From a virus: a DNA stretch of 35,071 nucleotides. This document shows, in pieces, positions 10,019 to 30,887 of the stretch (position 1 is the first letter of the stretch; each line of letters opens with the position of its first letter). The stretch lies in the IMG/VR virus record IMGVR_UViG_3300023082_000026, positions 1 through 35,071 of that record; one strand, 5' to 3'. The notes below the pieces were generated by a model. It saw nothing but the letters and a program-made list of their open reading frames with translations. It did not search any database and had not been told where the DNA came from. Both the position numbers and the translations under genes were made by a program.

Positions 10019-10720
10019 TTAATCTTTATATTTTATTTTAAAACGTTTTTTATATGTAAAACCTTTTCGTATGAATACTCCAACTGATTGTACATTAAGG
10101 TCAAAAAGATTACAAAAAGTTACATTAGATTCGTACTCAGTTGTTGTCCCTTCTAAAAGGTCCTCAACGATGATAGGTTTGTTCGATGGAGATTTAAATC
10201 CATTTGCATACTTTTCCTTTTTACTCTTACTAATCTTTATCTTAATTTCTTCTGTTAGAACTTTACCTTTATGAATTTCACTGTTGCGTTTTGAAAACTC
10301 TTCAGATCTTTTTTGACCTTTAAGTTTTGCACTCATTGCTGCTTTAGCTTCTTCCGTATGGTGTCTTCCGAAGAATCCATTTTTTTCTCCAAATACTTTT
10401 CTTTTCTCAATCCATTCTTTAGATTGTTTCACTCCTAAATGGCAAGGAATTATTTTAAAGAGTTTATTTATACATAAACTGTTTCCTTCAAACGTTTTTA
10501 AAATCTCAACTTCTTTCAGTTTTAATTCTTTGCGAGTATCAACTTGACAAAGTATTTCTTTAACTAAAATATCTTTATTAGTCTTAATGTATTCTCTATT
10601 CCAAACAGAACTAGAACCCATGTATTTATCAAAAAGGGCTTCGCATTTTGAAGTACGAAGCCCTATATAGAATTCTTGTGTTTGAGAATTCGTTATTTTA
10701 TATATGTAGTGTATTTCCAT
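10019..10720 (-). CDS. GIY-YIG homing endonuclease with NUMOD-type DNA-binding repeats
   Basis: A 233-aa protein. The N-terminal GIY-YIG domain (residues 1-85) shows the paired motifs HYIYKITN (4-11) and FYIGLRTSK (17-25), with R23 matching the conserved Arg and a Glu in KLKEVEILK near 75 as the likely metal-binding residue. A basic linker follows with NUMOD3-like motifs (GEKNGFFGRHHTEEAKAAMS near 110; a KGQKRSEEFSKRNSEIHKGK-like repeat near 135). The C-terminal 45 residues resemble a NUMOD1-type helix-turn-helix (TEYESNVTFCNLFDLN). It is a free-standing endonuclease between the capsid and 295-aa genes. It would cut the cognate site in endonuclease-free relatives and spread by repair. Family call is confident. 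Confidence 0.9.
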   Translation of the reverse strand: MEIHYIYKITNSQTQEFYIGLRTSKCEALFDKYMGSSSVWNREYIKTNKDILVKEILCQVDTRKELKLKEVEILKTFEGNSLCINKLFKIIPCHLGVKQSKEWIEKRKVFGEKNGFFGRHHTEEAKAAMSAKLKGQKRSEEFSKRNSEIHKGKVLTEEIKIKISKSKKEKYANGFKSPSNKPIIVEDLLEGTTTEYESNVTFCNLFDLNVQSVGVFIRKGFTYKKRFKIKYKD

Positions 10721-17276: not shown

Positions 17277-17777
17277 TTAAATTAATACGTAACCATCTTT
17301 ATCTACTTTTCCAGCTTTCTTAAGAGCTAATAAATCTCTCCAATTCTTACCAAATCTCATTTCGAAATGAGGAGCATCTACCATACTTTCATCTTTATCA
17401 CCCTGAGCTTTGGTTATCCCATCATTATCCCAATCTGCACCCCATACGAAGCCGTGTTTCTTGAATATATTGACAACTATCATCCAATTCTTATCGACAA
17501 CCCATGACTCTTTACCATCTTTTTGAATGACAAAGTCTAAAGCTAAACCATAATTATGATATGAAGAGCCTCCTGGTGCATTCGTTACAATTGGACCTGG
17601 TTTTGTACGGCCTTGCGCGTACAAGGCATCAGATTCAGCGAATGAACGCATAGTTTGAGTTATAAAAGGGTGTATTCCTACTGGAGTTTTAGCAACTGCT
17701 TCAGCATATGCGTCTAATGCTTTTTGTCTAATCTTGGGATGTAATTGATTTAGACGTTTTATTGATGTTTGTTCCAT
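17277..17777 (-). CDS. Endolysin, M15-type peptidoglycan peptidase (VanY/T5 endolysin-like)
   Basis: A 166-aa single-domain enzyme without signal peptide. The M15 zinc-site motifs are complete: SSYHNYGLALD (71-81) supplies H74 and D81, and DAPHFEM (134-140) supplies the likely catalytic D134 and the third zinc ligand H137, with the D-x-x-H spacing seen in T5-type L-alanyl-D-glutamate peptidases. It should cleave peptide crosslinks or stems of the cell wall at lysis. Lacking an export signal, it depends on the holin-like protein encoded 4 bp downstream. Coupled by TAATG to the 195-aa gene. The family is confident; the exact bond cleaved is not readable from sequence. Confidence 0.93.
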   Translation of the reverse strand: MEQTSIKRLNQLHPKIRQKALDAYAEAVAKTPVGIHPFITQTMRSFAESDALYAQGRTKPGPIVTNAPGGSSYHNYGLALDFVIQKDGKESWVVDKNWMIVVNIFKKHGFVWGADWDNDGITKAQGDKDESMVDAPHFEMRFGKNWRDLLALKKAGKVDKDGYVLI

Positions 17778-18370: not shown

Positions 18371-21300
18371 TTATAGTGATGTTGTACTTAATACTCCTGT
18401 ATCTGATATAGTAATCCTCCACCTAGTTCCATTAGGTGACTTAAGAATATAACCTTTAGTAGTATCTGTTACCTCATAATCTGTAGCTTGAGCTGTTAAT
18501 GCAAGTAGGCCAGTAACATTTATTGGTAGTCTAACGGTACCATTAACTGTCATAGTACCTAAATTAGTACTTAAATTTACACCAAATGTACCATCAGAAA
18601 AAAATATACCACCATTCTGCACTGTATTACTTGAATTTACTGTAGTCCAGCCACTATTAAAAGTTTGTCTAAAACTAAACGTTTTTAAACCTGTTACAGT
18701 TTGAGTAGTATTAGTAGTTATGTAATTACCTAAATCCGTTAATCTTACTATATGATTTGCTAACGTTGGTGCTGTTGCTATTAAACCCTGCCCAGCAATA
18801 CTAAAACTTACTCCAGGTTGTGGTGTAGTGGTTTGGTTCTGTACGTAAGTTGTTACCCCTGCTGTAGTATCTAAATCTGCTAGAACTTGAGCAAGAGTCC
18901 TAGTACCTACACCTCCCCCTGAATTTCTACCTAATAAAGTAGGTAAACTAACTGCTGAAGCAGAACCACTAGTTAAATTGAGAGTAGTACCGGTAATACT
19001 TCCACCTTGTATGATACCATTTATTCTAATAGCAGCGTTCTGAATGACAGTAGTTTGATTTTGAATATAATTTGCACTTCCAGTAGCTGGAGCTAAATTT
19101 ATACCACTTATATTAATAACTGGCGTAGTTGTTCCAGTGTCCACTGAACCTGTTAAACCATCTGTAGGATTAAGTGTAACAGAAGTTACTGTTCCACTTC
19201 CAGATGCTATAGTTATATTACCAGAACCAAATATACTAGTTCCATTAATGGTCTTAACATTAGTGCTATTTAATAACGTTCCACTCGAAACTGGTAATAT
19301 ATTAATTGCTCCATTACCATCTGCAGTAGTTCCAGGTACTAACGTACTAGTGTAGGTTACACCTAAACCGTCTGTATTATAGGCAGCTAAAGCAATAGAA
19401 CCTCTTACTCCGGAACCATTATTAGCAGCAGTCATTTCAATTAATGTAGTTTGATTTGAACTAATACCAGTAACTTGTAATGCACCTCTTATTGCTTGAG
19501 TAGCTTCAAAAATATTCGCAGTTTTAACATTTGCTTTTAGACCTAAACCAGTATTAACAGCGGAAACTGTAGGATACATGCTAACAGGTGTAGTAACATC
19601 TATTAATGTATTTACTTTATTGGTAAGGACTTCTTTAGTTAATAGTGCATTATATGTACCATTAGATGATACAGCATTCGTTGAACCATTTGTTGGATTA
19701 TTATCAATAATCAATGCTGATGGAATATCACTAATTAATGCAATTATACCACTTTTATTTAAAGGAAATTGTAATAATGAATTATTTGTAATTCCAGGGT
19801 AGTTAACTGAAATACCTTGTTGAAACCCTTTATAACTAAATGAGATACCTGAATGACCAAATCTTGAAGTTCTAAGATTTGGATCACTTTGTTCTTCTTG
19901 CTGAATGGTAAATGCATCACCTGTCTGAAAAGTAAACCCGTAACTATCATTACCAACCACACCTGCCCTCATAGAAGCTGCTGATATCATCTTATTGGTG
20001 GTATTACCAGAATCAGTTACATTTTGTAAATTTGGTGTAGCGCCACTGCCTAATTGATCCATTGTTACAAAATCCTTAGGATTAACACCACTTTCCCCAG
20101 CTAATCTACCTATAATGGTACCGCCTAAACCTCCATTACTAGAAGCCTCGTTAAATGTAATACCTCCCGTACCAGCTTGTATATTTACACTTTTGTTATC
20201 TCTAAGAATTATACCAGATGAAGTAGTGTTATCAGATAGACTATTAGTTAACAAACTACCCATGTCAGGAATATGATAGATATTAAGTCCAACTGAATTA
20301 TCTATTCCAGTAAATCCAGTAACCCTTAAACCATGATCAGTTACAGCACCAACTTGTGTTACTGCTTGTAATGTAGGTACACTAGCTCCTGCAGTTGCAT
20401 TAAATGTTATATTAGGGTATGTTCCAGTTATAGTTACATTTGAACCTGCAATAGGATTAAATTGAGCTATTGGAGTATAGTATTCCATTGCTGTATTACC
20501 AGAATTTATACGTATAGCTTGTCCTCCTGTACCTACAGTATTGTTTATATTAAATATACCACTACGTAGAATTTTAAACTTACTTGAACTTCCATATTGA
20601 AAATCCACAATTGATCCTGTACCTATAATATTATTGACTGTTAATGCTGTGGTGGCATCATTCATATTTCTAGTAATAGTAGTACCAGAACTATTGGTAA
20701 GTATAGAGGCTAGACTACCATTACCAAAAGCCTGCATACCACCAGCATCTAATCTACCATCTGGTAGAACTCCTGCTACATTTATACCTCCTTGTTGAAA
20801 AGTAACTATTCTAGAAGTTCCTAGTCTATTATTAACTGTTAAAGCTGGCTTTTCATCAGCAATCTCTCTAGTTAGAATAGTACCTTCATTTGCCGTTCCA
20901 AATGCTAAAGCTCCATTAGAAGCTCCATTAATACTACTAACTATATTAGCTAACATTTGATTTGCTGCGACAAAATCTCCAAATACCCCAGTACCATTAA
21001 TTCTTAAAGAGGCTTGTTGAGTTACTGTATTTTGATTCTGTATATAGTTAGTAGAATTTGGTATAGTAGGTTTGTTTGTAAGATCATTATAATTCCCACT
21101 AAAGAATGTTGGTTTATTTGTAATTTCTGTCCAATCTGGTACATATGTAATATTTCTATAAAAAGTATCACCTTGAGCTTTAGTTATCCAGTTACCATAA
21201 TTACCAAGGTTATTAGTGAACTGACTAAGTAATGTAGGCTTCCCAGTTAAACTATTCCAAGTCCCATCAAATAGTGTTGGTTTATTAATTAAATCATCAT

Positions 21301-21628
21301 AATCTCCACTAAATCCTGCTTCTCCACTTATAGTAAAGTTTGGATAATTCGCATCTATCGTTATATGAGGGCCAGCGATTAAGTTTACTGGAGCACTATC
21401 TCCAGTAGTAAGATTAAGCCATTCTGCACGAGTTAAGTGATATCTTTCATAAATATTTCCCCCTTGTAAACCGTTGAGGTTATTATGCAAATCTTCTTCT
21501 ACATCTGTATCTCCACAAATAACAATAGATGTTGAAGAACATGTAGAATCTATAAAAGAATCTATATTATTATCTGACGCTGTAACACTAGAGTCTTCAC
21601 CTATAGTTAAGTAATTATTGTTTTCCAT
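18371..21628 (-). CDS. Tail fibre protein with NKPT and YIQNQ repeats
   Basis: A 1085-aa, low-charge, Thr/Asn/Gly-rich fibre. Residues 1-70 hold a possible attachment module with Cys residues (STCSSTSIVICGDTD) and HNNLNGLQGGNIYERYHL (48-65), shared with the 459-aa fibre. Four NKPT-type motifs follow between 111 and 190, then repeated stalk segments (ALTVNNRLGT and ALTVNNIIGTGSIV) and three YIQNQ/YVQNQ units. LGNYITTNTTQTVTGLKTFS (about 970) is a classic fibre strand motif. The C-terminus (YEVTDTTKGYILKSPNGTRW) resembles fibre tips. It should bind the host surface. It follows the glycoside hydrolase gene after a palindrome and precedes the 195-aa gene by 6 bp. No enzyme motif seen. Confidence 0.82.
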   Translation of the reverse strand: MENNNYLTIGEDSSVTASDNNIDSFIDSTCSSTSIVICGDTDVEEDLHNNLNGLQGGNIYERYHLTRAEWLNLTTGDSAPVNLIAGPHITIDANYPNFTISGEAGFSGDYDDLINKPTLFDGTWNSLTGKPTLLSQFTNNLGNYGNWITKAQGDTFYRNITYVPDWTEITNKPTFFSGNYNDLTNKPTIPNSTNYIQNQNTVTQQASLRINGTGVFGDFVAANQMLANIVSSINGASNGALAFGTANEGTILTREIADEKPALTVNNRLGTSRIVTFQQGGINVAGVLPDGRLDAGGMQAFGNGSLASILTNSSGTTITRNMNDATTALTVNNIIGTGSIVDFQYGSSSKFKILRSGIFNINNTVGTGGQAIRINSGNTAMEYYTPIAQFNPIAGSNVTITGTYPNITFNATAGASVPTLQAVTQVGAVTDHGLRVTGFTGIDNSVGLNIYHIPDMGSLLTNSLSDNTTSSGIILRDNKSVNIQAGTGGITFNEASSNGGLGGTIIGRLAGESGVNPKDFVTMDQLGSGATPNLQNVTDSGNTTNKMISAASMRAGVVGNDSYGFTFQTGDAFTIQQEEQSDPNLRTSRFGHSGISFSYKGFQQGISVNYPGITNNSLLQFPLNKSGIIALISDIPSALIIDNNPTNGSTNAVSSNGTYNALLTKEVLTNKVNTLIDVTTPVSMYPTVSAVNTGLGLKANVKTANIFEATQAIRGALQVTGISSNQTTLIEMTAANNGSGVRGSIALAAYNTDGLGVTYTSTLVPGTTADGNGAINILPVSSGTLLNSTNVKTINGTSIFGSGNITIASGSGTVTSVTLNPTDGLTGSVDTGTTTPVINISGINLAPATGSANYIQNQTTVIQNAAIRINGIIQGGSITGTTLNLTSGSASAVSLPTLLGRNSGGGVGTRTLAQVLADLDTTAGVTTYVQNQTTTPQPGVSFSIAGQGLIATAPTLANHIVRLTDLGNYITTNTTQTVTGLKTFSFRQTFNSGWTTVNSSNTVQNGGIFFSDGTFGVNLSTNLGTMTVNGTVRLPINVTGLLALTAQATDYEVTDTTKGYILKSPNGTRWRITISDTGVLSTTSL
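21059..21301 (-). repeat. NKPT-type repeats in the 1085-aa fibre
   Basis: Four short repeats: DLINKPTLF, SLTGKPTLL, EITNKPTFF and DLTNKPTIP. The first two are 14 residues apart, as are the last two, with a 40-residue interval between pairs. Such W/Y-x-x-(I/L)-x-x-KPT motifs are common at hinges and stalk starts of phage fibres. Confidence 0.75.
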
Positions 21629-21672: not shown

Positions 21673-24600
21673 TTATTCTTCACTATAACCTCCAACAGTA
21701 TATTTCCAGCCATTGCCGGCAGAGTCTACAGCCATCACGTAACATATGATGTAAACATTACCTGTGTAACCTGCTAATAAAGCTGAGTAAGCCGATCTAG
21801 GTAATGTAGCTCCAGTACCAACCAAAGTTTGATCTCCAAATCCTCCGGCATCTCGTTTATTTAGATACCATTTATATTTAGTTTGAGCTAAATTTATACC
21901 TCCTCCAGAAGGATTTTTAGTACTAAAATTAGCAGTCCAAGTTTGAGTAGTATTATTAAATGTTTGAAATACATCGTAGGCAAAAGGCTTCTTAACTTCT
22001 GTTCCATCAATCTGCCATTTAGTAGCTAGTGAGTTTAAGTAGTTTAATCTTACAGCATCACTTGTAAATCTACCAAGCTTTTGATACTGTGCAAAGAAAT
22101 CCCAGTTTGCATTATTAGTATCAACAAATAATGCATGACCTATTTTACCTTGAGTTTCACTATGCGAGATTTGTCCTTGATAACCATCTCCATTAGTTCC
22201 AGTTTTGATCCATAGTCTACAGAAGTTTGTATCAAATTGTACGTGAACTATAGTTTTAACAAAATGTGGTGGAGTTACTGCATTAGGTACTGTAAAGTTA
22301 TTACGAAGAACCCTTACACCATCTCCAACATTACCTACGTAATCATTAGATTGAAAACTATTTGACCATGCCTCATACGTCTGTCCAGGTAAACTTCTCA
22401 TTACCCAAGTACATTCATATGGGAAATGTTTAACAGCAAAGTCAGCTGAATGATACTGTAAATCTGGAACATTTTCCGCTGTAATATAATTCTCTGTAAG
22501 TATAGGTGGTACACCAATTACTGCAGGAGTTGTATCGCCTTGAAAGAATAGTGGATAACTACCTTTCTTGTCTAACACTGTACCAACAGAATCACCACTC
22601 ACAGCAGCGGTTGTTGTACCAAATTTCTGAGAATTCTTGGCATAATAAACGCTATCCATTAATAACTCTTCAGCATTAAGAATATCAAAATTAGGATCCT
22701 CAACTGTTGTTTCATTAAAGGCTGGTGATAATACAACACTAGATTCATTCCTATTAGTACCTGCTTTAACTTTAAATCTATAATAACCTGCAGCTCTATT
22801 TATATTGCCTACATTAATAGTAGTTGTATAAGGTAAATATGTGGTTCCTCCATCTGTAGAATATACAATATCTGAAGGATAAGAAGTTTGCGTAGCAGTT
22901 AAAGTGTTAGTAGTATCATTAGCAATTAGAGTTGGTGCTGCTGGAGTAATAATTACTGGAGCATTTCCTGGATATACAGGTACTATTTTATAAAAATAAT
23001 TAATTGATGCTTGTGCACTTTCATCAATATATTGACATTCAGCTAATAGTGGTCCAGAGTAAATAGTTGTATAAGTACCATTTAAGGTAGAGCTTCTACT
23101 TATAATAACTTCTGTATCTACAATATTTTTATCAGTCCATGTAAGTAATACACTACCATTATCACCTACTTCTTGTTTTGCTATATTTTCTACAGGTTTC
23201 AACATAGGTTTACCAATATTACTAGTTTTTACAAAGATAGGACATTCACTAATAGTTAATGTAATATAACCATTTACAGCATTGACTGTACTAGTAACAC
23301 CGATCAATGATTCCCTAATTTCAGCTTCATCAATATTAGTTACTTGCACAGAAGCTTCATTAACTTTCAATTGAATAGTTAAAGTTCTAAATTCTGCTGT
23401 GTCTAACCAAAGCACAATTGTGTTCTCATCTGCAAGTTCATTTTTATAAGCCATAGCCCATATATGTTCATCTACAGTAGGAATAAGTGTAGCACCTTCT
23501 AACTGTGATACACCGTATTTCATTATAACATGAGAATACTTGTAATCAGTAAGAGTATGTTTAAAGTTAGCTACATACCAATATGACATGAGTGGTTTTC
23601 TATTCCAATCATTAGCATCTTGAATACCATCTGTAAGACCAGATGTTAAGAACTTGTCTGGATGTGGTTCATATTGATCACTATCTTCAACTCTTTGTGA
23701 ACCATGATTTGAAAACCAATATTGATTTGTAACATCAACTCCAGTCATTTGATTGATCATATAAACACGAGTTAACCAATAAGCTTTATAACGTGATCTT
23801 TCAAATTGTGTAGGATAAGCTGGAGAATATACACCACCATAATGTTCATCATAACCTACCTCAGTAAGCCATACTTCAACGTTAGGACAGTAGGTATCTC
23901 TAAACTCTACCCATCTTAAGTTAGCTTCTATTAAATTACCTAATTCTGGTTGTAAACCATAGGCGTTAATGGATGCATCTTGTGATCCTTCACTTGAGTT
24001 ATACCAGTGATAGTTAACTAAATCAAATGGATAATCACCTTTACCTCTATATTTATCACACCACCACATCACTTGGTTGGCATAGGCGATATTATCGCCA
24101 GATGCCGTAGATATAAAACTTACCTTCATAGAAGGGTCAGCATTTTTAATTCCAAACCCAGGACCCATGGCACCTTTATGTCCGTCATAAATAGCTGAAA
24201 GATAAGCAGCCATCTCTTGTGGATTATGATACATTTGTTCACCTAACCACCAACGGTCAAACTCATTACCTATTTCTAATACTTCAACCAAGTCTAAACC
24301 AACTCTCATTGGTTGAGGTGATCCATCATCCATAGGTTCTAATACAATCTGTGATGTATCTATATTTTTATTAGCGCCATACCTTGCAGCCCATACCCAT
24401 GAACTTCTAGCTATAAACTTGTAGTTCATAGGGTCTGTTGTATCTACTAGTTTAATAGATGACTTTCCAGGATCTACTGCTTTAGAGTATTGAGCATTAG
24501 GTGTATTAATAGCACGAAGAAACGCAGGTGAAGCATTTACGTCAATCATTACTTTAGAGCCATAGTTCTTAAAACCTTGTAAGAATTGATCAATATTACC

Positions 24601-25404
24601 TAAATCTGCATTAGTCCATCTATATTCTATTTGATAAGGTGTTAAGTTTTTACCTGAACCTGAGTTAACAAGTTTATTACCATAGAACCATTGAGGTACT
24701 ACATAAAACCTATGTGTACCACTAACTGGCGCCATAAGTTCAGGATGTTCTAACCAGAAACCGTTAGTTCCCATATGATATTGAACAGGACGTTCAACAA
24801 CTCTACGTTTATATTTTAAACCTTGATTAAGGACTTCAGTTTGTGGACGACCATATATTACAAAAGCTTTAATCCAGGCGTCCATTGATTCAGTGCCAAG
24901 AGTGATAAATCTTACACCCCCTCTAAACTCTGAGCCGGTGAAGTCTAATTTCACCCATTTTTCTCTTTCAATTTCATCCGACTCTGGCATTAATACATTA
25001 TAATCGGCACCATCTGCACTACCTAGTACAGTAATAGGCCCTCTAGTAGTATCTCCTATCCATATATATGCGTAATCAATATTATAAAAATTCTCTAAAT
25101 CAAATACTGCTCTATTATATTGAATATTATACCAACTTGATTTAAGATAATCATTATTAGCTATCCACATACCATCATTTGATGGTACACCAGTCGGTTC
25201 TCCATTAACGTTATTTATTGCACTAAGATCTGTTAAATTCACTATTGAGAGAACTCCTCCGTCACCATCTTCTAAGTAATGAAACTGGTTAGCAAATACT
25301 TTGTCAGGTTTTACTTGAATAGGTTTAGAGAATTCCCCAGCAGGAAGGGGAGTAAATGTTGAACTCCCCCCAAATGCTAGTCTTGTTGATGATAATATAT
25401 CCAT
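21673..25404 (-). CDS. Virion glycoside hydrolase (clan GH-A-like), multidomain depolymerase
   Basis: A 1243-aa protein. Residues about 30-190 form a beta domain resembling a discoidin-type carbohydrate-binding fold. Residues about 200-620 look like a (beta/alpha)8 hydrolase: LEIGNEFDRWW gives the Asn-Glu pair N380-E381 (acid/base) and VWLTEVGYDE gives E515 (nucleophile), with NYHWY (464-468) between. A beta domain follows (625-735), then an FnIII-like domain (740-812), the domain shared with two neighbours (820-897), a LamG/concanavalin-like domain (905-1130) and a C-terminal PKD-like domain. It should cut capsular or other surface polysaccharide during adsorption. Coupled by TAATG to the 470-aa gene. 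Hydrolase clan is confident, exact family and substrate are not. Confidence 0.85.
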   Translation of the reverse strand: MDILSSTRLAFGGSSTFTPLPAGEFSKPIQVKPDKVFANQFHYLEDGDGGVLSIVNLTDLSAINNVNGEPTGVPSNDGMWIANNDYLKSSWYNIQYNRAVFDLENFYNIDYAYIWIGDTTRGPITVLGSADGADYNVLMPESDEIEREKWVKLDFTGSEFRGGVRFITLGTESMDAWIKAFVIYGRPQTEVLNQGLKYKRRVVERPVQYHMGTNGFWLEHPELMAPVSGTHRFYVVPQWFYGNKLVNSGSGKNLTPYQIEYRWTNADLGNIDQFLQGFKNYGSKVMIDVNASPAFLRAINTPNAQYSKAVDPGKSSIKLVDTTDPMNYKFIARSSWVWAARYGANKNIDTSQIVLEPMDDGSPQPMRVGLDLVEVLEIGNEFDRWWLGEQMYHNPQEMAAYLSAIYDGHKGAMGPGFGIKNADPSMKVSFISTASGDNIAYANQVMWWCDKYRGKGDYPFDLVNYHWYNSSEGSQDASINAYGLQPELGNLIEANLRWVEFRDTYCPNVEVWLTEVGYDEHYGGVYSPAYPTQFERSRYKAYWLTRVYMINQMTGVDVTNQYWFSNHGSQRVEDSDQYEPHPDKFLTSGLTDGIQDANDWNRKPLMSYWYVANFKHTLTDYKYSHVIMKYGVSQLEGATLIPTVDEHIWAMAYKNELADENTIVLWLDTAEFRTLTIQLKVNEASVQVTNIDEAEIRESLIGVTSTVNAVNGYITLTISECPIFVKTSNIGKPMLKPVENIAKQEVGDNGSVLLTWTDKNIVDTEVIISRSSTLNGTYTTIYSGPLLAECQYIDESAQASINYFYKIVPVYPGNAPVIITPAAPTLIANDTTNTLTATQTSYPSDIVYSTDGGTTYLPYTTTINVGNINRAAGYYRFKVKAGTNRNESSVVLSPAFNETTVEDPNFDILNAEELLMDSVYYAKNSQKFGTTTAAVSGDSVGTVLDKKGSYPLFFQGDTTPAVIGVPPILTENYITAENVPDLQYHSADFAVKHFPYECTWVMRSLPGQTYEAWSNSFQSNDYVGNVGDGVRVLRNNFTVPNAVTPPHFVKTIVHVQFDTNFCRLWIKTGTNGDGYQGQISHSETQGKIGHALFVDTNNANWDFFAQYQKLGRFTSDAVRLNYLNSLATKWQIDGTEVKKPFAYDVFQTFNNTTQTWTANFSTKNPSGGGINLAQTKYKWYLNKRDAGGFGDQTLVGTGATLPRSAYSALLAGYTGNVYIICYVMAVDSAGNGWKYTVGGYSEE
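22714..22947 (-). repeat. Shared fibre domain, copy in the glycoside hydrolase
   Basis: Residues 820-897 of the 1243-aa protein. Key segments are TLIANDTTNTLTA, YSTDGGTTYLPYTTTINVG, RAAGYYRFKVKAG and NESSVVLSPAF. The pattern resembles a chitobiase C-terminal or Ig-like fold. Homologous copies lie at 25977-26207 and 26878-27099. Confidence 0.8.
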
Positions 25405-26816
25405 TATGGTACTAAGGTTAATCCTGATCCTTGAGGATAAAGGAATGGTACTTGTCTTCCTAATTGAATAGCAAAGTAAACAGGTTGTCCTGGAACAAAA
25501 CCTGTACCTGTAACTGTTAAACTAACAGGTGGTGTTACTTCAGTTATAGTTGTTCCATTAGTAGATCTAAATGGGGTAAATGATTGTGTTGTTCCATTAT
25601 CATTCCATCTTAAAATGAAGTAATCATTTGCTTGATAAGGAGTACTTGGCCAATCTACGAATGTTTCTGCAAGGGTTTGATTATATGTATGCATTACTCC
25701 TGCATCTATGTAACAACCAATTCCCCAAGGTACTGGTGTTCCTACAGTATATGAAGGTAATACACCAATTAAAGCATCTTGTTCCGTAGCTCCTAATTTA
25801 TAAGCAATAAAGTCACCATTAGTTAATTGATACTTAGGTGTTAATCTTTGAGGATCATGATCATATGCAAAGAATATACCAGGAGAAGTTTCAGCTGTTC
25901 CATCTTGATTAAAGTCAATTAGGCCATTTAATGCTGCTACTGCTGTATATCCTGGTAATAAATTACCTGCACTACCTGCTACTGTGAATGCTGGTGAATC
26001 AACCACAGCTGATTCGTCTCTACCTGCTGCAGATGATATTTTAAATTTCCAATAACCTGCTGCTCTAGCTACATCTCCAACTGAAATAGTACCGGTGTAA
26101 GGTACATAAGATCCACCTGCAGTACTAAATACTATCGCTGACTGATAAGTACCATGAGTTGCACTAAGTGTATTTGCACTATCATCTGCTGCTAGTACTG
26201 GCGGTGTTGGTGTGATATTACCTGGAGTTGGAGTAGTTATACTATTTGCTCCATAACTACTTGCTGTATATCCACTATTAGGTGTAGCTTGTACTCTATA
26301 GTAATAGAGAGTATTTTGTGTTAAACCTGAATCAGCATAAGCTAATAATGTACCAGTGTATAAGTTAGTTAAGTTAGCTGAAAAACCTGCATTAGTAGCT
26401 CTCTGAAGAACATAACCACTTGCATTCGCTACGCTAGTCCATGAAGCATTTACTGCATTTGAACCGTTAGCTGTTAAGCCAAGTGCAGGCGTAGCGAGTT
26501 GTGGATTGCCTCCACCTCCAATAAGACCAGCCTTTATTTTATAAGGATTTGATAATGTTCCATCACCATCAAATTGAGTTGTATCTAAATATGTAGTAGA
26601 AGATACCACAGCAGGATTAATTACAATCCTTTGATATACTTGTCCATCAATTACTGTTGTTCCACTAACTATAAAGTCAGTTTCAGAAAAAGCATAGTAT
26701 TTCTTTTTAGCTTCATCATATACTAAGTTTAAACTGTTCTTTATAATATTATATTCATCTGCTGATACCTGTTGTCCGTCTAGTTTATCAGGTAAATTTA
26801 TTATTTGTTCTGCCAT
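25404..26816 (-). CDS. Fibre/adhesin-like virion protein with FnIII and shared domain
   Basis: A 470-aa protein. N-terminal 100 residues: a helical start (LPDKLDGQQVSADEYNIIKN) and FDGDGTLSNPYKI, a motif typical of phage appendage proteins. A Gly-rich hinge (GLIGGGGNP) leads to an FnIII domain (107-197: VNASWTSVANASGYVLQRA and YYYRVQATP). The shared domain spans 204-280, followed by a unique C-terminal domain (285-470) with GLIDFNQDGTAE near 310. No enzymatic motif. It is 7 bp after the 459-aa gene and is coupled by TAATG to the hydrolase. Likely an adsorption accessory on the same appendage, binding glycans or linking hydrolase to fibre; this role is inferred. Confidence 0.78.
   Translation of the reverse strand: MAEQIINLPDKLDGQQVSADEYNIIKNSLNLVYDEAKKKYYAFSETDFIVSGTTVIDGQVYQRIVINPAVVSSTTYLDTTQFDGDGTLSNPYKIKAGLIGGGGNPQLATPALGLTANGSNAVNASWTSVANASGYVLQRATNAGFSANLTNLYTGTLLAYADSGLTQNTLYYYRVQATPNSGYTASSYGANSITTPTPGNITPTPPVLAADDSANTLSATHGTYQSAIVFSTAGGSYVPYTGTISVGDVARAAGYWKFKISSAAGRDESAVVDSPAFTVAGSAGNLLPGYTAVAALNGLIDFNQDGTAETSPGIFFAYDHDPQRLTPKYQLTNGDFIAYKLGATEQDALIGVLPSYTVGTPVPWGIGCYIDAGVMHTYNQTLAETFVDWPSTPYQANDYFILRWNDNGTTQSFTPFRSTNGTTITEVTPPVSLTVTGTGFVPGQPVYFAIQLGRQVPFLYPQGSGLTLVP
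25977..26207 (-). repeat. Shared fibre domain, copy in the 470-aa protein
   Basis: Residues 204-280. Key segments: VLAADDSANTLSATHGTY, YVPYTGTISVGDVARAAGYW, KFKISSAAGRDESAVVDSPA. This copy is closest to the one in the hydrolase; the order of conserved positions is identical. Confidence 0.8.
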
Positions 26817-26823
26817 GTTTTTG

Positions 26824-28203
26824 TTATTGTGTTAGTGTAAATGGTAATGCTAATGGGAATCCATATTTACCTACGTGTGTTGGTAAACTAGATTGTATTT
26901 TACTTTCTAATCTTCTATCTGCAGCTATAATTTTAGCTTTCCAGAATCCTGCAGGTCGAGCTATATCTTGGAAGCTTATTTTACCTGTATAAGGTAAAAA
27001 TGGTCCCCCATTAGTCGACATTAATATTTGATCGTCTGGATAAGACGCAAAGATCTCAAGTGTTTTATTGTAATCGTCGATGGCAAATACAGGTAATACA
27101 GTTTGTTCAATACCACCAACTAAAATTCTTGAAGTCCAATAGACAGCAGTATCAGTTCTAAACCAGTTTAATTCTGTCTCTGCACGAGCCAATGTATTAT
27201 TAGGAGGGTTAGTTCCTTCGTTACCTTCAGCTATAGTAAGTAAATGTCCACCTTCATCATCAATTACAGCTACAATTCTACCATACATTCCTGGTAAAGC
27301 ATCTATAGCGCTAAATCTAGTATCTCTAGTAATGAGTAATTTTTTCATACCCATAGAACTAACACTAACTAAACCATTTACATCACTAATAATGTCAAAA
27401 CTAAAAGGTTCTTCCTGATCCCATGCAGCCATTCTCTCTTCTGTGATAGTTGAGAGTTTAGTTATTTCTGTATCTAGTACTAATGATTTACCAGTAACTT
27501 TATCTACTTTGTTAGTGAGTATATAATTAATTAAATCTTTATTTTGTTCTATAAAGTTTACTATTTCTTGGATAGTGTCTAAATTAACATTATCAGAACT
27601 TAGCAAGGTCATGATACTACTTATTTGTCCTGATAATACACCATCTTGAGTTTGTAAATTATTTACAAATGTACGTAATGTAGCAAAGGTGTCTGTAGTG
27701 TTTCCCCCTCGTAAAGCTGTGACTAGGGAGTTTGCTACACCTGCATTTTCTTTACTAGTTACGGTGTTCCAAGCTGTAATATTTGCTTGTGTAATAGCTT
27801 TAACATAAGCTGGTACAGTTGGATCAATCTCTTCTTGTACTGCTAATTCTGATATAGTAATAAAAGGGTTATCTGGTGATGGGTCAACAAAGTTTGGATT
27901 GCCATTAAGATCATTGACTGTAGCATATCTATTTTCAGGTGATGCTTCAGTTGCAGCCATTAATGCGCCATATGTATTTAGATTGATGTGATATCTATTT
28001 TGTTGATCACCACCTTGTAATCCTTCTAAATCATTATGTCTTGATGGTTCAGGAGTTGGATCTGTGGGATCAGTCGGTGCTGTTTCAGTATCTCCACAAC
28101 AGTCAGTACTACCACCCACCTCTTTTATAAGGGCTAAGTTTTGTACTGAAGATGTATCATTCTCTTCTGTAATTACAGATATATTTCCACTTCCACTTAT
28201 CAT
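26824..28203 (-). CDS. Tail fibre with shared N-terminal motif and shared C-terminal domain
   Basis: A 459-aa protein whose ATG overlaps the TGA of the 70-aa gene. Residues 33-72 hold STDCCGDTE, a Pro/Thr-rich stretch and RHNDLEGLQGGDQQNRYHI, closely matching the 1085-aa fibre. Residues 80-250 are helical, probably a trimeric coiled coil (AITQANITAWNTVTSKENAG, then LDTIQEIVNFIEQNKDLINY and TNKVDKVTGKSLV). Residues 265-360 form a beta domain (MYGRIVAVIDDEGGHL). The C-terminal 90 residues contain the domain shared with the next two genes. Likely a fibre base or adaptor at the head of the receptor-binding cluster. Architecture is readable; the assembly position is inferred. Confidence 0.8.
   Translation of the reverse strand: MISGSGNISVITEENDTSSVQNLALIKEVGGSTDCCGDTETAPTDPTDPTPEPSRHNDLEGLQGGDQQNRYHINLNTYGALMAATEASPENRYATVNDLNGNPNFVDPSPDNPFITISELAVQEEIDPTVPAYVKAITQANITAWNTVTSKENAGVANSLVTALRGGNTTDTFATLRTFVNNLQTQDGVLSGQISSIMTLLSSDNVNLDTIQEIVNFIEQNKDLINYILTNKVDKVTGKSLVLDTEITKLSTITEERMAAWDQEEPFSFDIISDVNGLVSVSSMGMKKLLITRDTRFSAIDALPGMYGRIVAVIDDEGGHLLTIAEGNEGTNPPNNTLARAETELNWFRTDTAVYWTSRILVGGIEQTVLPVFAIDDYNKTLEIFASYPDDQILMSTNGGPFLPYTGKISFQDIARPAGFWKAKIIAADRRLESKIQSSLPTHVGKYGFPLALPFTLTQ
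26878..27099 (-). repeat. Shared fibre domain, copy in the 459-aa fibre
   Basis: Residues 369-442. Key segments: VLPVFAIDDYNKTLEIFASY, MSTNGGPFLPYTGKISFQDI, ARPAGFWKAKIIAADRRLES. The most diverged of the three copies, yet all anchor positions are kept (PYTGxI, (A/N)xxAGxxxxK, R/N-x-ES). Confidence 0.8.
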
Positions 28204-29263: not shown

Positions 29264-29335
29264 CTAAACTAATACATATGTTGCTGCAGCTCCAATAGTA
29301 CCATCATGATCATTACTAATATTTTTCTTACGGTA
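29264..29335 (-). pseudogene. Apparent C-terminal remnant of a virion protein, out of frame with the SGNH gene
   Basis: Just past the SGNH stop, the +1 frame reads YRKKNISNDHDGTIG then AAATYVLV and stops at TAG (29264-29266). The peptide has the composition of a virion-protein C-terminus, not of random AT-rich spacer: no stop over more than 30 codons counting into the SGNH gene, with Gly/Ala and a hydrophobic last strand. It has no start codon of its own. It may be the old C-terminus of a fibre replaced by the esterase domain, or the true C-terminus lost through a one-base shift. The evidence is the reading frame alone. Confidence 0.4.
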
Positions 29336-29343
29336 AGAAAAAT
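29321..29343. repeat. Perfect 11-bp inverted repeat across the SGNH stop codon
   Basis: ATTTTTCTTAC and its reverse complement GTAAGAAAAAT flank a single G (29332). The TAA stop of the esterase gene (29328-29330) lies inside it, and the remnant frame is read from its far arm. No T run follows on either strand, so it is a poor terminator candidate; it marks the junction between gene and remnant. Confidence 0.75.
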
Positions 29344-30887
29344 GATGCTGAAGGTAATGCAGCTGCTATAGTAGTTTCTCCAGTTGCTGTTGGATGTGTA
29401 CCATCTGTCTGTAAATTGGATTTCCATACTCCACTATTTCTTGCTGTTTCAACTACATCTGCTACATCCACATACTTCCATAATGGAGCTGGTAATGTTC
29501 TTATCCAATCATTAAGTTGAATACGGATAGCTTCTTGAGGAGCACCAAAACTTGATCTTGGAAATACAGTTGCTTGTACAACACGCATTCCTGAATTTGC
29601 AAGTGTAGTCCACCACTTAAGATATTGTGCCTGTACATCAGCAAAAACTGTTGCAGAAGCTATATCATTTGCTCCGTAATTAGTTAATGCTATATCTATA
29701 CCTGTTGAGTAAGTAGACACAAATCCAAATGATCCATCTGTAGTATGATTTAGTGATTTATCACCACCAACAGCAAATTTAACCCAAGGGACATTAATTA
29801 AATCCAACCATTTTCTACCCCATCCTTGATCTAATTGAATACCTGTTCCACCATTTGAATTACCATCAAATATACTATCTCCAAAAAGACCAATATTTGC
29901 AAAAGTAGGTGTTGTATTTGGTTTAGCTATGATCCCAAAAGGCCCATATCCACCAGTTGTTATATTTGTTAATGTTCCTCCACTTAAAGTACCAGCAGGA
30001 AAAGTACCTTCGGTTAATGTAGATTGTGGTATTAAACCAAGTGGCCATTTCATACCAAGTGTAGTAACTGTAACAGATACTCTTAAATTATAATTAGTTC
30101 CAGCCACAAAGTTATAAGGACTAGGATCAGATTTTGCTGATCCTCCAGGAGGTATAGTAATGGAGGTTTGACCATTAAAAAATACATCTCTTGTACTTAC
30201 ATTATATATAGAAACTGCTATAGTAACAGGGTTTAATCCTAAACCCTCTGCTGCTGCTCCTCCAGTACTATTACCCATAGTCCAGTTAGGAAATAGAAAC
30301 TGAACTCCAGTACAATTAAACTTAGGTCTAAACCAATAAGAATAGGTTAAACCTGTAACAGTTCCATCACTAAAACCTTTACCAGGAGCTACAAACTTAC
30401 CTACTGGTATTATCCCACTAAACCAACCCGTAGATTTAATAATACTTATATTTGATAATTTAGCTATATCTGTATCGTTAGTAAATCTATGAGTTGCATC
30501 TTGAGTAATTGTATCAGCTGTCTGTACTCCAGTATGATTAGCCCTGTTCTTTAAATTTACATCTGTATCATTAACTGTAGCTCCAGTAGCTACACCTGTA
30601 AGTTTAGTTTTTTCAGCAGTAGTATATACTTGATCAATAGCAGTAATTTTAGTACCTTCTGCTGTAGTTATCAGCCTTTGGCCAGCTACAGTAGCGACTG
30701 CCCCTACATTACTAGCAGTTAAAGGGACATTTCCAGTACCATCAGGGGAAACTCCTGCTACAGATGTAACAGTGCCGGTTCCTCCACCACCTCCGCCTTC
30801 ATCTATTGTATCTTGAAGATATTGAAAATTGAACTCTATATCTTCAATTGTTTGAGGTGTATATTTACTAATTTTTTTAAGTGGCAT
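29328..30887 (-). CDS. Tail fibre/spike with C-terminal SGNH esterase domain
   Basis: A 519-aa protein. Residues 1-30 may attach it (MPLKKISKYTPQTIEDIEFN); a poly-Gly hinge (31-36) and typical fibre stalk follow (GTVTSVAGVSPDGTGNVPLT; TTAEKTKLTGVATGATV; TGVQTADTITQDATHRF), with a beta domain at 150-325. The enzyme domain (330-519) has all SGNH blocks: GDSIFDGN with S338, AVGGDKS with G374/G375, NYGANDI with N407, and DGTHPTATG with D495 and H498. It should remove acyl groups (for example O-acetyl) from surface glycans during adsorption. It follows the portal gene by 2 bp and ends at a palindrome with an out-of-frame remnant beyond. Esterase fold is confident, substrate unknown. Confidence 0.88.
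   Translation of the reverse strand: MPLKKISKYTPQTIEDIEFNFQYLQDTIDEGGGGGGTGTVTSVAGVSPDGTGNVPLTASNVGAVATVAGQRLITTAEGTKITAIDQVYTTAEKTKLTGVATGATVNDTDVNLKNRANHTGVQTADTITQDATHRFTNDTDIAKLSNISIIKSTGWFSGIIPVGKFVAPGKGFSDGTVTGLTYSYWFRPKFNCTGVQFLFPNWTMGNSTGGAAAEGLGLNPVTIAVSIYNVSTRDVFFNGQTSITIPPGGSAKSDPSPYNFVAGTNYNLRVSVTVTTLGMKWPLGLIPQSTLTEGTFPAGTLSGGTLTNITTGGYGPFGIIAKPNTTPTFANIGLFGDSIFDGNSNGGTGIQLDQGWGRKWLDLINVPWVKFAVGGDKSLNHTTDGSFGFVSTYSTGIDIALTNYGANDIASATVFADVQAQYLKWWTTLANSGMRVVQATVFPRSSFGAPQEAIRIQLNDWIRTLPAPLWKYVDVADVVETARNSGVWKSNLQTDGTHPTATGETTIAAALPSASFFLP

Follow-up and report, generated by a model that had tools for sequence, protein, structure and literature searches.

Genes and features of the locus

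The virus record IMGVR_UViG_3300023082_000026, whose full 35,071-nucleotide stretch we call "the window", carries three adjacent genes that each encode one copy of the same domain of about 76 residues. The proteins are a 459-amino acid (aa) fibre, a 470-aa protein and a 1243-aa glycoside hydrolase (GH) protein, all encoded on the minus strand. The terminase, portal and major capsid proteins place the source of the window in the Crassvirales (phrog_6681, 4e-48; phrog_6547, 4e-46; phrog_11589, 7e-12); its portal protein is 22–26% identical to those of crAss-like phages and 41–43% identical to those of unannotated gut phage records. A GDSL esterase gene lies upstream of the trio with one gene in between. 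The relevant features, including fibronectin type III (FnIII)-like segments, are as follows:

29328..30887, minus strand: 519-aa GDSL/SGNH esterase gene (Lipase_GDSL_2, 8e-15; phrog_8480, 2e-31); without the shared domain
26824..28203, minus strand: 459-aa fibre gene; residues 186–247 are a tail-fibre segment (phrog_19602, tail fiber, 7e-7)
26878..27105, minus strand: shared domain, copy 1, the most divergent; fibre residues 367–442, ending 17 residues short of the C-terminus
25404..26816, minus strand: 470-aa protein gene; N-terminal part, FnIII-like segment, shared domain, unclassified C-terminal tip
26232..26498, minus strand: FnIII-like segment of the 470-aa protein, residues 107–195; Pfam fn3 E=0.07, below the cut-off
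25986..26213, minus strand: shared domain, copy 2; 470-aa protein residues 202–277
21673..25404, minus strand: 1243-aa GH protein gene; N-terminal region, GH39-like catalytic module, FnIII-like segment, shared domain, unclassified C-terminal region
23200..24792, minus strand: catalytic module, clan GH-A, nearest GH39; GH protein residues 205–735
22960..23202, minus strand: FnIII-like segment of the GH protein, residues 735–815; borderline similar to its 470-aa counterpart
22717..22947, minus strand: shared domain, copy 3; GH protein residues 820–896

One domain in three adjacent genes

A preliminary description of this DNA had proposed a domain of about 75 residues common to three adjacent genes, and this is borne out: the copies lie where it had put them, all in frame, with residue ranges that we set by profile. 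When the segments were aligned and compared with composition-matched shuffles, all three pairs scored far above the shuffle maximum; the Smith-Waterman scores are 227 for GH/470, 100 for GH/459 and 142 for 470/459, while the top scores among 2,000 shuffles are 64, 48 and 48, respectively. For the same three pairs the amino acid identities are 57%, 39% and 44%, and the nucleotide identities are 64%, 46% and 48%. The three copies are homologous, and neither a profile search nor a comparison of the window proteins with one another found the domain in any further window protein.

The same description had an FnIII-like domain preceding the shared domain in two of the proteins. Such a segment is present in the 470-aa protein, where it resembles the corresponding segment of two tail proteins from other loci (L001 and L008), and one is probably present ahead of the domain in the GH protein. 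The two FnIII-like segments, however, score 51 against each other with a shuffle maximum of 50 (z 4.6), and since this is barely above the shuffles, the FnIII-like segment plus the shared domain is not clearly one duplicated unit.

Fold and family of the shared domain

The domain as it occurs in the three window proteins has no domain-level match in Pfam, NCBIfam or PHROG, and no sequence match in the PDB. An AlphaFold (AF2) model made from an alignment of 40 copies is all beta, with a predicted local distance difference test score (pLDDT) of 94 and a predicted template modelling score (pTM) of 0.80. Its top Foldseek matches are the immunoglobulin (Ig)-like repeats of the grappling-hook protein GhpA from the Bacteroidota genus Aureispira (probability 0.8–0.9, template modelling (TM) score 0.5–0.6); PKD and FnIII domains come next, the best E value overall is 0.21, which is not significant, and a Foldseek search against viral models returned nothing significant. 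The GhpA repeats are also repeated domains in a bacterial surface fibre, but with E values of 0.2–0.7 and 12–20% identity the resemblance is at the fold level only. An Ig-like beta-sandwich is nonetheless the likely, though not proven, fold class of the modelled domain.

Membership in several known families was considered and rejected. There is no Pfam match to BACON (PF13004) or BACON_2 (PF19190), and the profile-profile probability with BACON is 1.7%. The BACON domains of crAss-like phages are likewise counted as Ig-like beta-sandwiches; they are found both in surface proteins of Bacteroidota and in tail proteins of crAss-like phages, occur in arrays and move horizontally between phage lineages (PMC6949934), but they have no sequence relation to the domain described here, whose arrays are held by bacteria while the phage holds single copies in three adjacent genes. 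The Fn3-like accessory domain CHB_HEX_C_1 (PF13290) aligns in register with our profile ('IYYTxDGS...Y..PI.I' versus 'IVVSENGG...YTG.INV'), but the comparison is not significant (probability 5.5%, P 0.007), no match exceeds 22 bits, and there is no PF13290 match in the window. FN3 (PF00041) has no Pfam match to the shared domain either, the weak E of 0.07 belonging only to the segment that precedes it in the 470-aa protein, and Pfam, NCBIfam and profile comparisons relate it to no known carbohydrate-binding module (CBM) family. A THAP4_heme-bd match in the Pedobacter array protein L004 (Pfam 3.6e-13, in several stretches, the best inside the repeat array) is taken to be weak chance matches summed over ten repeats, because no single-copy protein shows it.

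The family thus appears to be uncatalogued in the Pfam, NCBIfam and PHROG libraries searched, and it belongs to a known kind, the promiscuous Ig-like modules of phage tails and of surface proteins in Bacteroidota. It resembles the Ig-like and FnIII domains of phage virions in being a beta-sandwich module that recurs promiscuously in different virion proteins and in phages of different types (Fraser et al. 2006, cited in PMC6949934; for domain shuffling, PMC10684548), and differs from them in that its sequence family lies outside those libraries and was found only in Bacteroidota genomes and viral contigs.

The glycoside hydrolase

The catalytic module of the GH protein is a clan GH-A enzyme, a (beta/alpha)8 barrel with two candidate catalytic glutamates. 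These, the candidate acid/base E381 (in GNE) and nucleophile E515 (in LTE), are invariant among ten relatives. A ten-sequence profile matches the GH39 structure 5jvk at 6e-6 and PslG at 4.5e-4 in the PDB, and 5jvk also ranks first (4.8e-13) in a Foldseek search with the GH model (mean pLDDT 72). GH39 rather than another GH-A family is therefore a likely, though not proven, assignment. The module shares the clan GH-A fold and the candidate catalytic glutamates with the GH39 enzymes 5jvk (B. cellulosilyticus) and PslG, but it is fused to the Ig-like module and is only 14% identical to 5jvk in the structural match. It shows up to 43% identity to proteins, mostly of 530–560 aa, that are found in most of the 30 genomes that matched in a set of 101 Pedobacter-family genomes; in a few of the 30 the match is solely to the Ig-like domain. 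When the GH was queried against viral contigs, alone and as a pair, the only match was to the crAss-like contig already known.

Occurrence in bacteria and other phages

In Pedobacter and Segetibacter the domain occurs in large proteins as tandem arrays of 5–11 copies with a period of about 80 residues. The three array proteins that were scanned (L004, L007 and L009) all end in a type IX secretion system (T9SS) sorting domain, recognised by PF18962 and TIGR04183 in L004 and L009 and by PF18962 in L007 (the L009 match is slightly below the Pfam cut-off and above that of NCBIfam). The Pedobacter proteins L004, L005, L006 and L007 combine the arrays with a parallel beta-helix, and some near-identical repeats within single proteins of this kind suggest recent array expansion.

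Phage contigs and prophage-like regions, of siphophage, myophage and crAss-like types, have the domain in one or two copies, among their tail genes. Its gene adjoins the tape-measure gene in the siphophage-type L016 and L019, and in L008 and L010 it lies, as read from the open reading frame (ORF) lists, downstream of a tape-measure-like gene and the next tail gene; L010 is from a prophage of Pedobacter sp. Leaf170. In the sheath-type phage L018 two copies are part of a GDSL esterase (L018:9749-11827); the window's GDSL esterase, unlike this one, has none. The crAss-like contig L002 also carries the domain. A different glycosidase-like protein in another Pedobacter-family genome (L027:967-3225) has a divergent copy that scores 56 bits and sits on a long branch, and the divergent second domain of L001, used as a query, matched its own contig only. 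Phage and bacterial copies conserve nearly the same positions. The domain is rare in genomes: it is present in 4 of 201 from the Pedobacter family and in 2 of 395 from the phylum, with the genome that the query came from counted in both, and a search of 50,697 phage records did not find it.

A parallel cassette in a distant crAss-like phage

A second phage, IMGVR_UViG_3300010373_000003 (92,895 bases), has an equally ordered set of three domain-bearing genes, whose products are 267 aa, 460 aa and, for the GH protein, 1228 aa long; a GDSL esterase gene lies between the first two. Its portal protein is 54–58% identical to crAssphage-type portals, and its terminase, portal and capsid proteins match crAss PHROGs; the window proteins fall into these three families too, though far more distantly. 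Only 4 of the 24 window proteins match this 92.9-kb contig, and these are the trio and the GDSL esterase. The C-terminal half of the fibre is 44% identical over 224 aa, the 470/460-aa pair 46% over 284 aa, the GH proteins 42% over 1,198 aa and the esterases 28% over 335 aa, whereas the portal, terminase and capsid proteins give short or very weak matches of 18–28%. The better-known kin of either phage among the 50,697 phage records have neither the domain nor the 470-aa protein.

This pattern indicates that an adsorption cassette has probably moved between divergent crAss-like lineages. Such exchange has precedent, as BACON repeats pass horizontally between crAss-like phages that otherwise have little in common (PMC6949934, PMC11216935). 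The alternative is that the cassette is ancestral to crAss-like phages, evolves slowly and has been lost from the known relatives. That both phages share PHROG families for terminase, portal and capsid is in keeping with common ancestry, but the adsorption genes (42–49%) would then have evolved far more slowly than portal and terminase (18–28% over short stretches), which is the reverse of the pattern reported for the Crassvirales, in which a review describes the tail spike region as evolving rapidly (PMC10136315), and loss would be required in all recorded kin. We consider this ancestral origin unlikely. The second phage's GDSL esterase (L017:7967-9415) starts with a segment that is 29% identical over 111 aa to the N-terminus of the 470-aa protein, a similarity which suggests that N-terminal parts have been exchanged.

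The preliminary description had also suggested duplication with domain shuffling. Duplication and shuffling are supported, but the duplications are old. At identical residues the same codon is used in 49%, 42% and 56% of cases (GH/470, GH/459 and 470/459), and codon usage predicts 47%, 45% and 49%; since the agreement is no higher than predicted, synonymous sites are saturated and the duplications must be old. In a tree built on only 76 columns, the two phages' fibre copies fall together in a single clade (support 100/99) apart from the GH and 470 copies, which group, with no resolved order, with Pedobacter array repeats. The fibre clade and the codon evidence together indicate that the copies predate the split of the two cassettes. 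A recent tandem duplication or ongoing gene conversion within this genome might be expected from the adjacency of the genes and from the 57% identity of the GH and 470 copies, slightly above the 49% between the GH copy and its own counterpart; but the copy in the second phage's 460-aa protein is just as similar to the GH copy (57%), and with the fibre clade and the codon frequencies standing against it as well, recent duplication is extremely improbable. Recent duplication or conversion is in fact rejected on the codon evidence, and gene conversion between the GH and 470 genes may still have taken place long ago.

Conservation breaks beside the domain

Between the two phages, the 470-aa protein and its 460-aa counterpart are 42% identical ahead of the domain and not recognisably similar past it, and the GH proteins are 49% identical ahead of it and 22% past it. 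The proteins of L012 and L014 show the opposite pattern, with 55% identity past the domain and nothing ahead. The C-terminal tip of the 470-aa protein is not conserved in its relatives, and no relative of it was found in viral contigs. In the fibre the match to the 267-aa protein, by its C-terminal part, starts at residue 236, and the first 235 residues differ; on these alignments the fibre seems to combine a base specific to its lineage with a distal part that both phages share. Since conservation breaks beside the domain, the module adjoins natural exchange points. The C-terminal tails of the fibres, 'FPLALPFTLTQ' in the window (26824-28203) and 'FPFVLPLTLS' in the second phage (L017:7162-7965), resemble 'FPYTFPFNLS', the end of a tail protein on a siphophage contig (L016:8616-9359).

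Possible roles of the module

We favour, with a probability of roughly 0.52, the reading that the module is an Ig-like beta-sandwich of Bacteroidota and phages which acts mainly as a joint or spacer in the adsorption proteins of this crAss-like phage. The trio and the GDSL esterase would form a virion adsorption set composed of a fibre, a 470-aa tip protein, a GH39-like polysaccharide-cutting enzyme and an esterase. The module would adjoin the boundary between a constant part and the parts that are swapped, be they tips that cut or bind sugars or the fibre base peculiar to the phage, and as a robust joint or spacer it would tolerate exchange of its neighbours. We infer the adsorption set, the transfer of the cassette between crAss-like lineages, and the spacing or joining rather than binding role of the module. 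Spacer roles have been proposed for the BACON and DUF1735 Ig-like domains (PMC6949934, PMC11216935). Several points weigh against this reading: the virion location of the trio is deduced from neighbouring genes only, the horizontal transfer of the cassette rests on two phages, the Ig-like fold assignment is without statistical significance (best Foldseek E 0.21), and several conserved residues of the domain are polar or aromatic (H22, Y41, R52, Y56, K60, R67 and E69). In the fibre, moreover, the domain is almost C-terminal and so joins nothing distal, and it is the best-conserved part of that protein (59% identity between the phages versus 34% for the stretch before it), as would fit a binding tip.

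Because the fibre copy is near-terminal and best conserved, we retain as a tentative possibility that the module binds glycans or surfaces, each copy attaching weakly to a polysaccharide or protein on the host surface, so that the virion gains avidity and the GH stays on its substrate. The attachment of the module to a GH39-like enzyme here, to the GDSL esterase of L018 and to the glycosidase-like protein of L027 agrees with this, but the module is unrelated to any known carbohydrate-binding family, its conserved positions are nearly identical in the bacterial arrays of 5–11 copies, as expected of a structural repeat, and published work on BACON and DUF1735, which are analogous domains, points to spacing rather than binding (PMC6949934, PMC11216935). 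It had further been suggested that the module docks all three proteins onto one shared appendage, for which its presence in three adjacent genes, and the retention of that arrangement in the second phage, could be cited. This is very unlikely, because the module is found in siphophage, myophage and crAss-like virions and in bacterial secreted arrays, which have no common partner, and because the N-termini of the fibre, the 470-aa protein and the GH are unrelated, which also led us to reject a common docking terminus; docking domains are, in addition, usually N-terminal, whereas the module is C-terminal or central. Residues 35–73 of the 459-aa fibre share an N-terminal motif, 'HN(D/N)L.GLQGG....RYH', with residues 37–65 of the 1085-aa fibre (18371-21628; 41% identity over 39 aa, E 2e-4), and this segment is a candidate for virion docking, and a better one than the shared domain. 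Mimicry seems to us a long shot: the phage copies would descend from repeats of host surface adhesins and engage the host's Ig-like arrays or their ligand, so that the fibre, the 470-aa protein and the hydrolase would home to the same T9SS-displayed structure, with the cassette exchanged among phage families as a host-range unit.

Other features of the window

A 233-aa ORF between structural genes (10019-10720), which starts 'IHYIYKITNSQTQEFYIG', recalls a GIY-YIG homing nuclease, and we take it to be a candidate for one only. A 166-aa ORF (17277-17777) just downstream of the tail-fibre genes matches endolysin PHROGs (1.9e-30). No Rfam family and no tRNA were found in the window.

Implications

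The domain family links the secreted surface arrays of Pedobacter-type bacteria with adsorption proteins from phages of three or more morphotypes, and a profile of the family would aid the annotation of tail-tip proteins in environmental Bacteroidota phages. The position of the joint marks where natural exchange of receptor-binding tips occurs. A collinear adsorption cassette is documented here in two crAss-like phages with head genes that can scarcely be recognised as related, and the recurrence of the gene set in so distant a phage suggests that phages trade a ready-made host-attachment kit.

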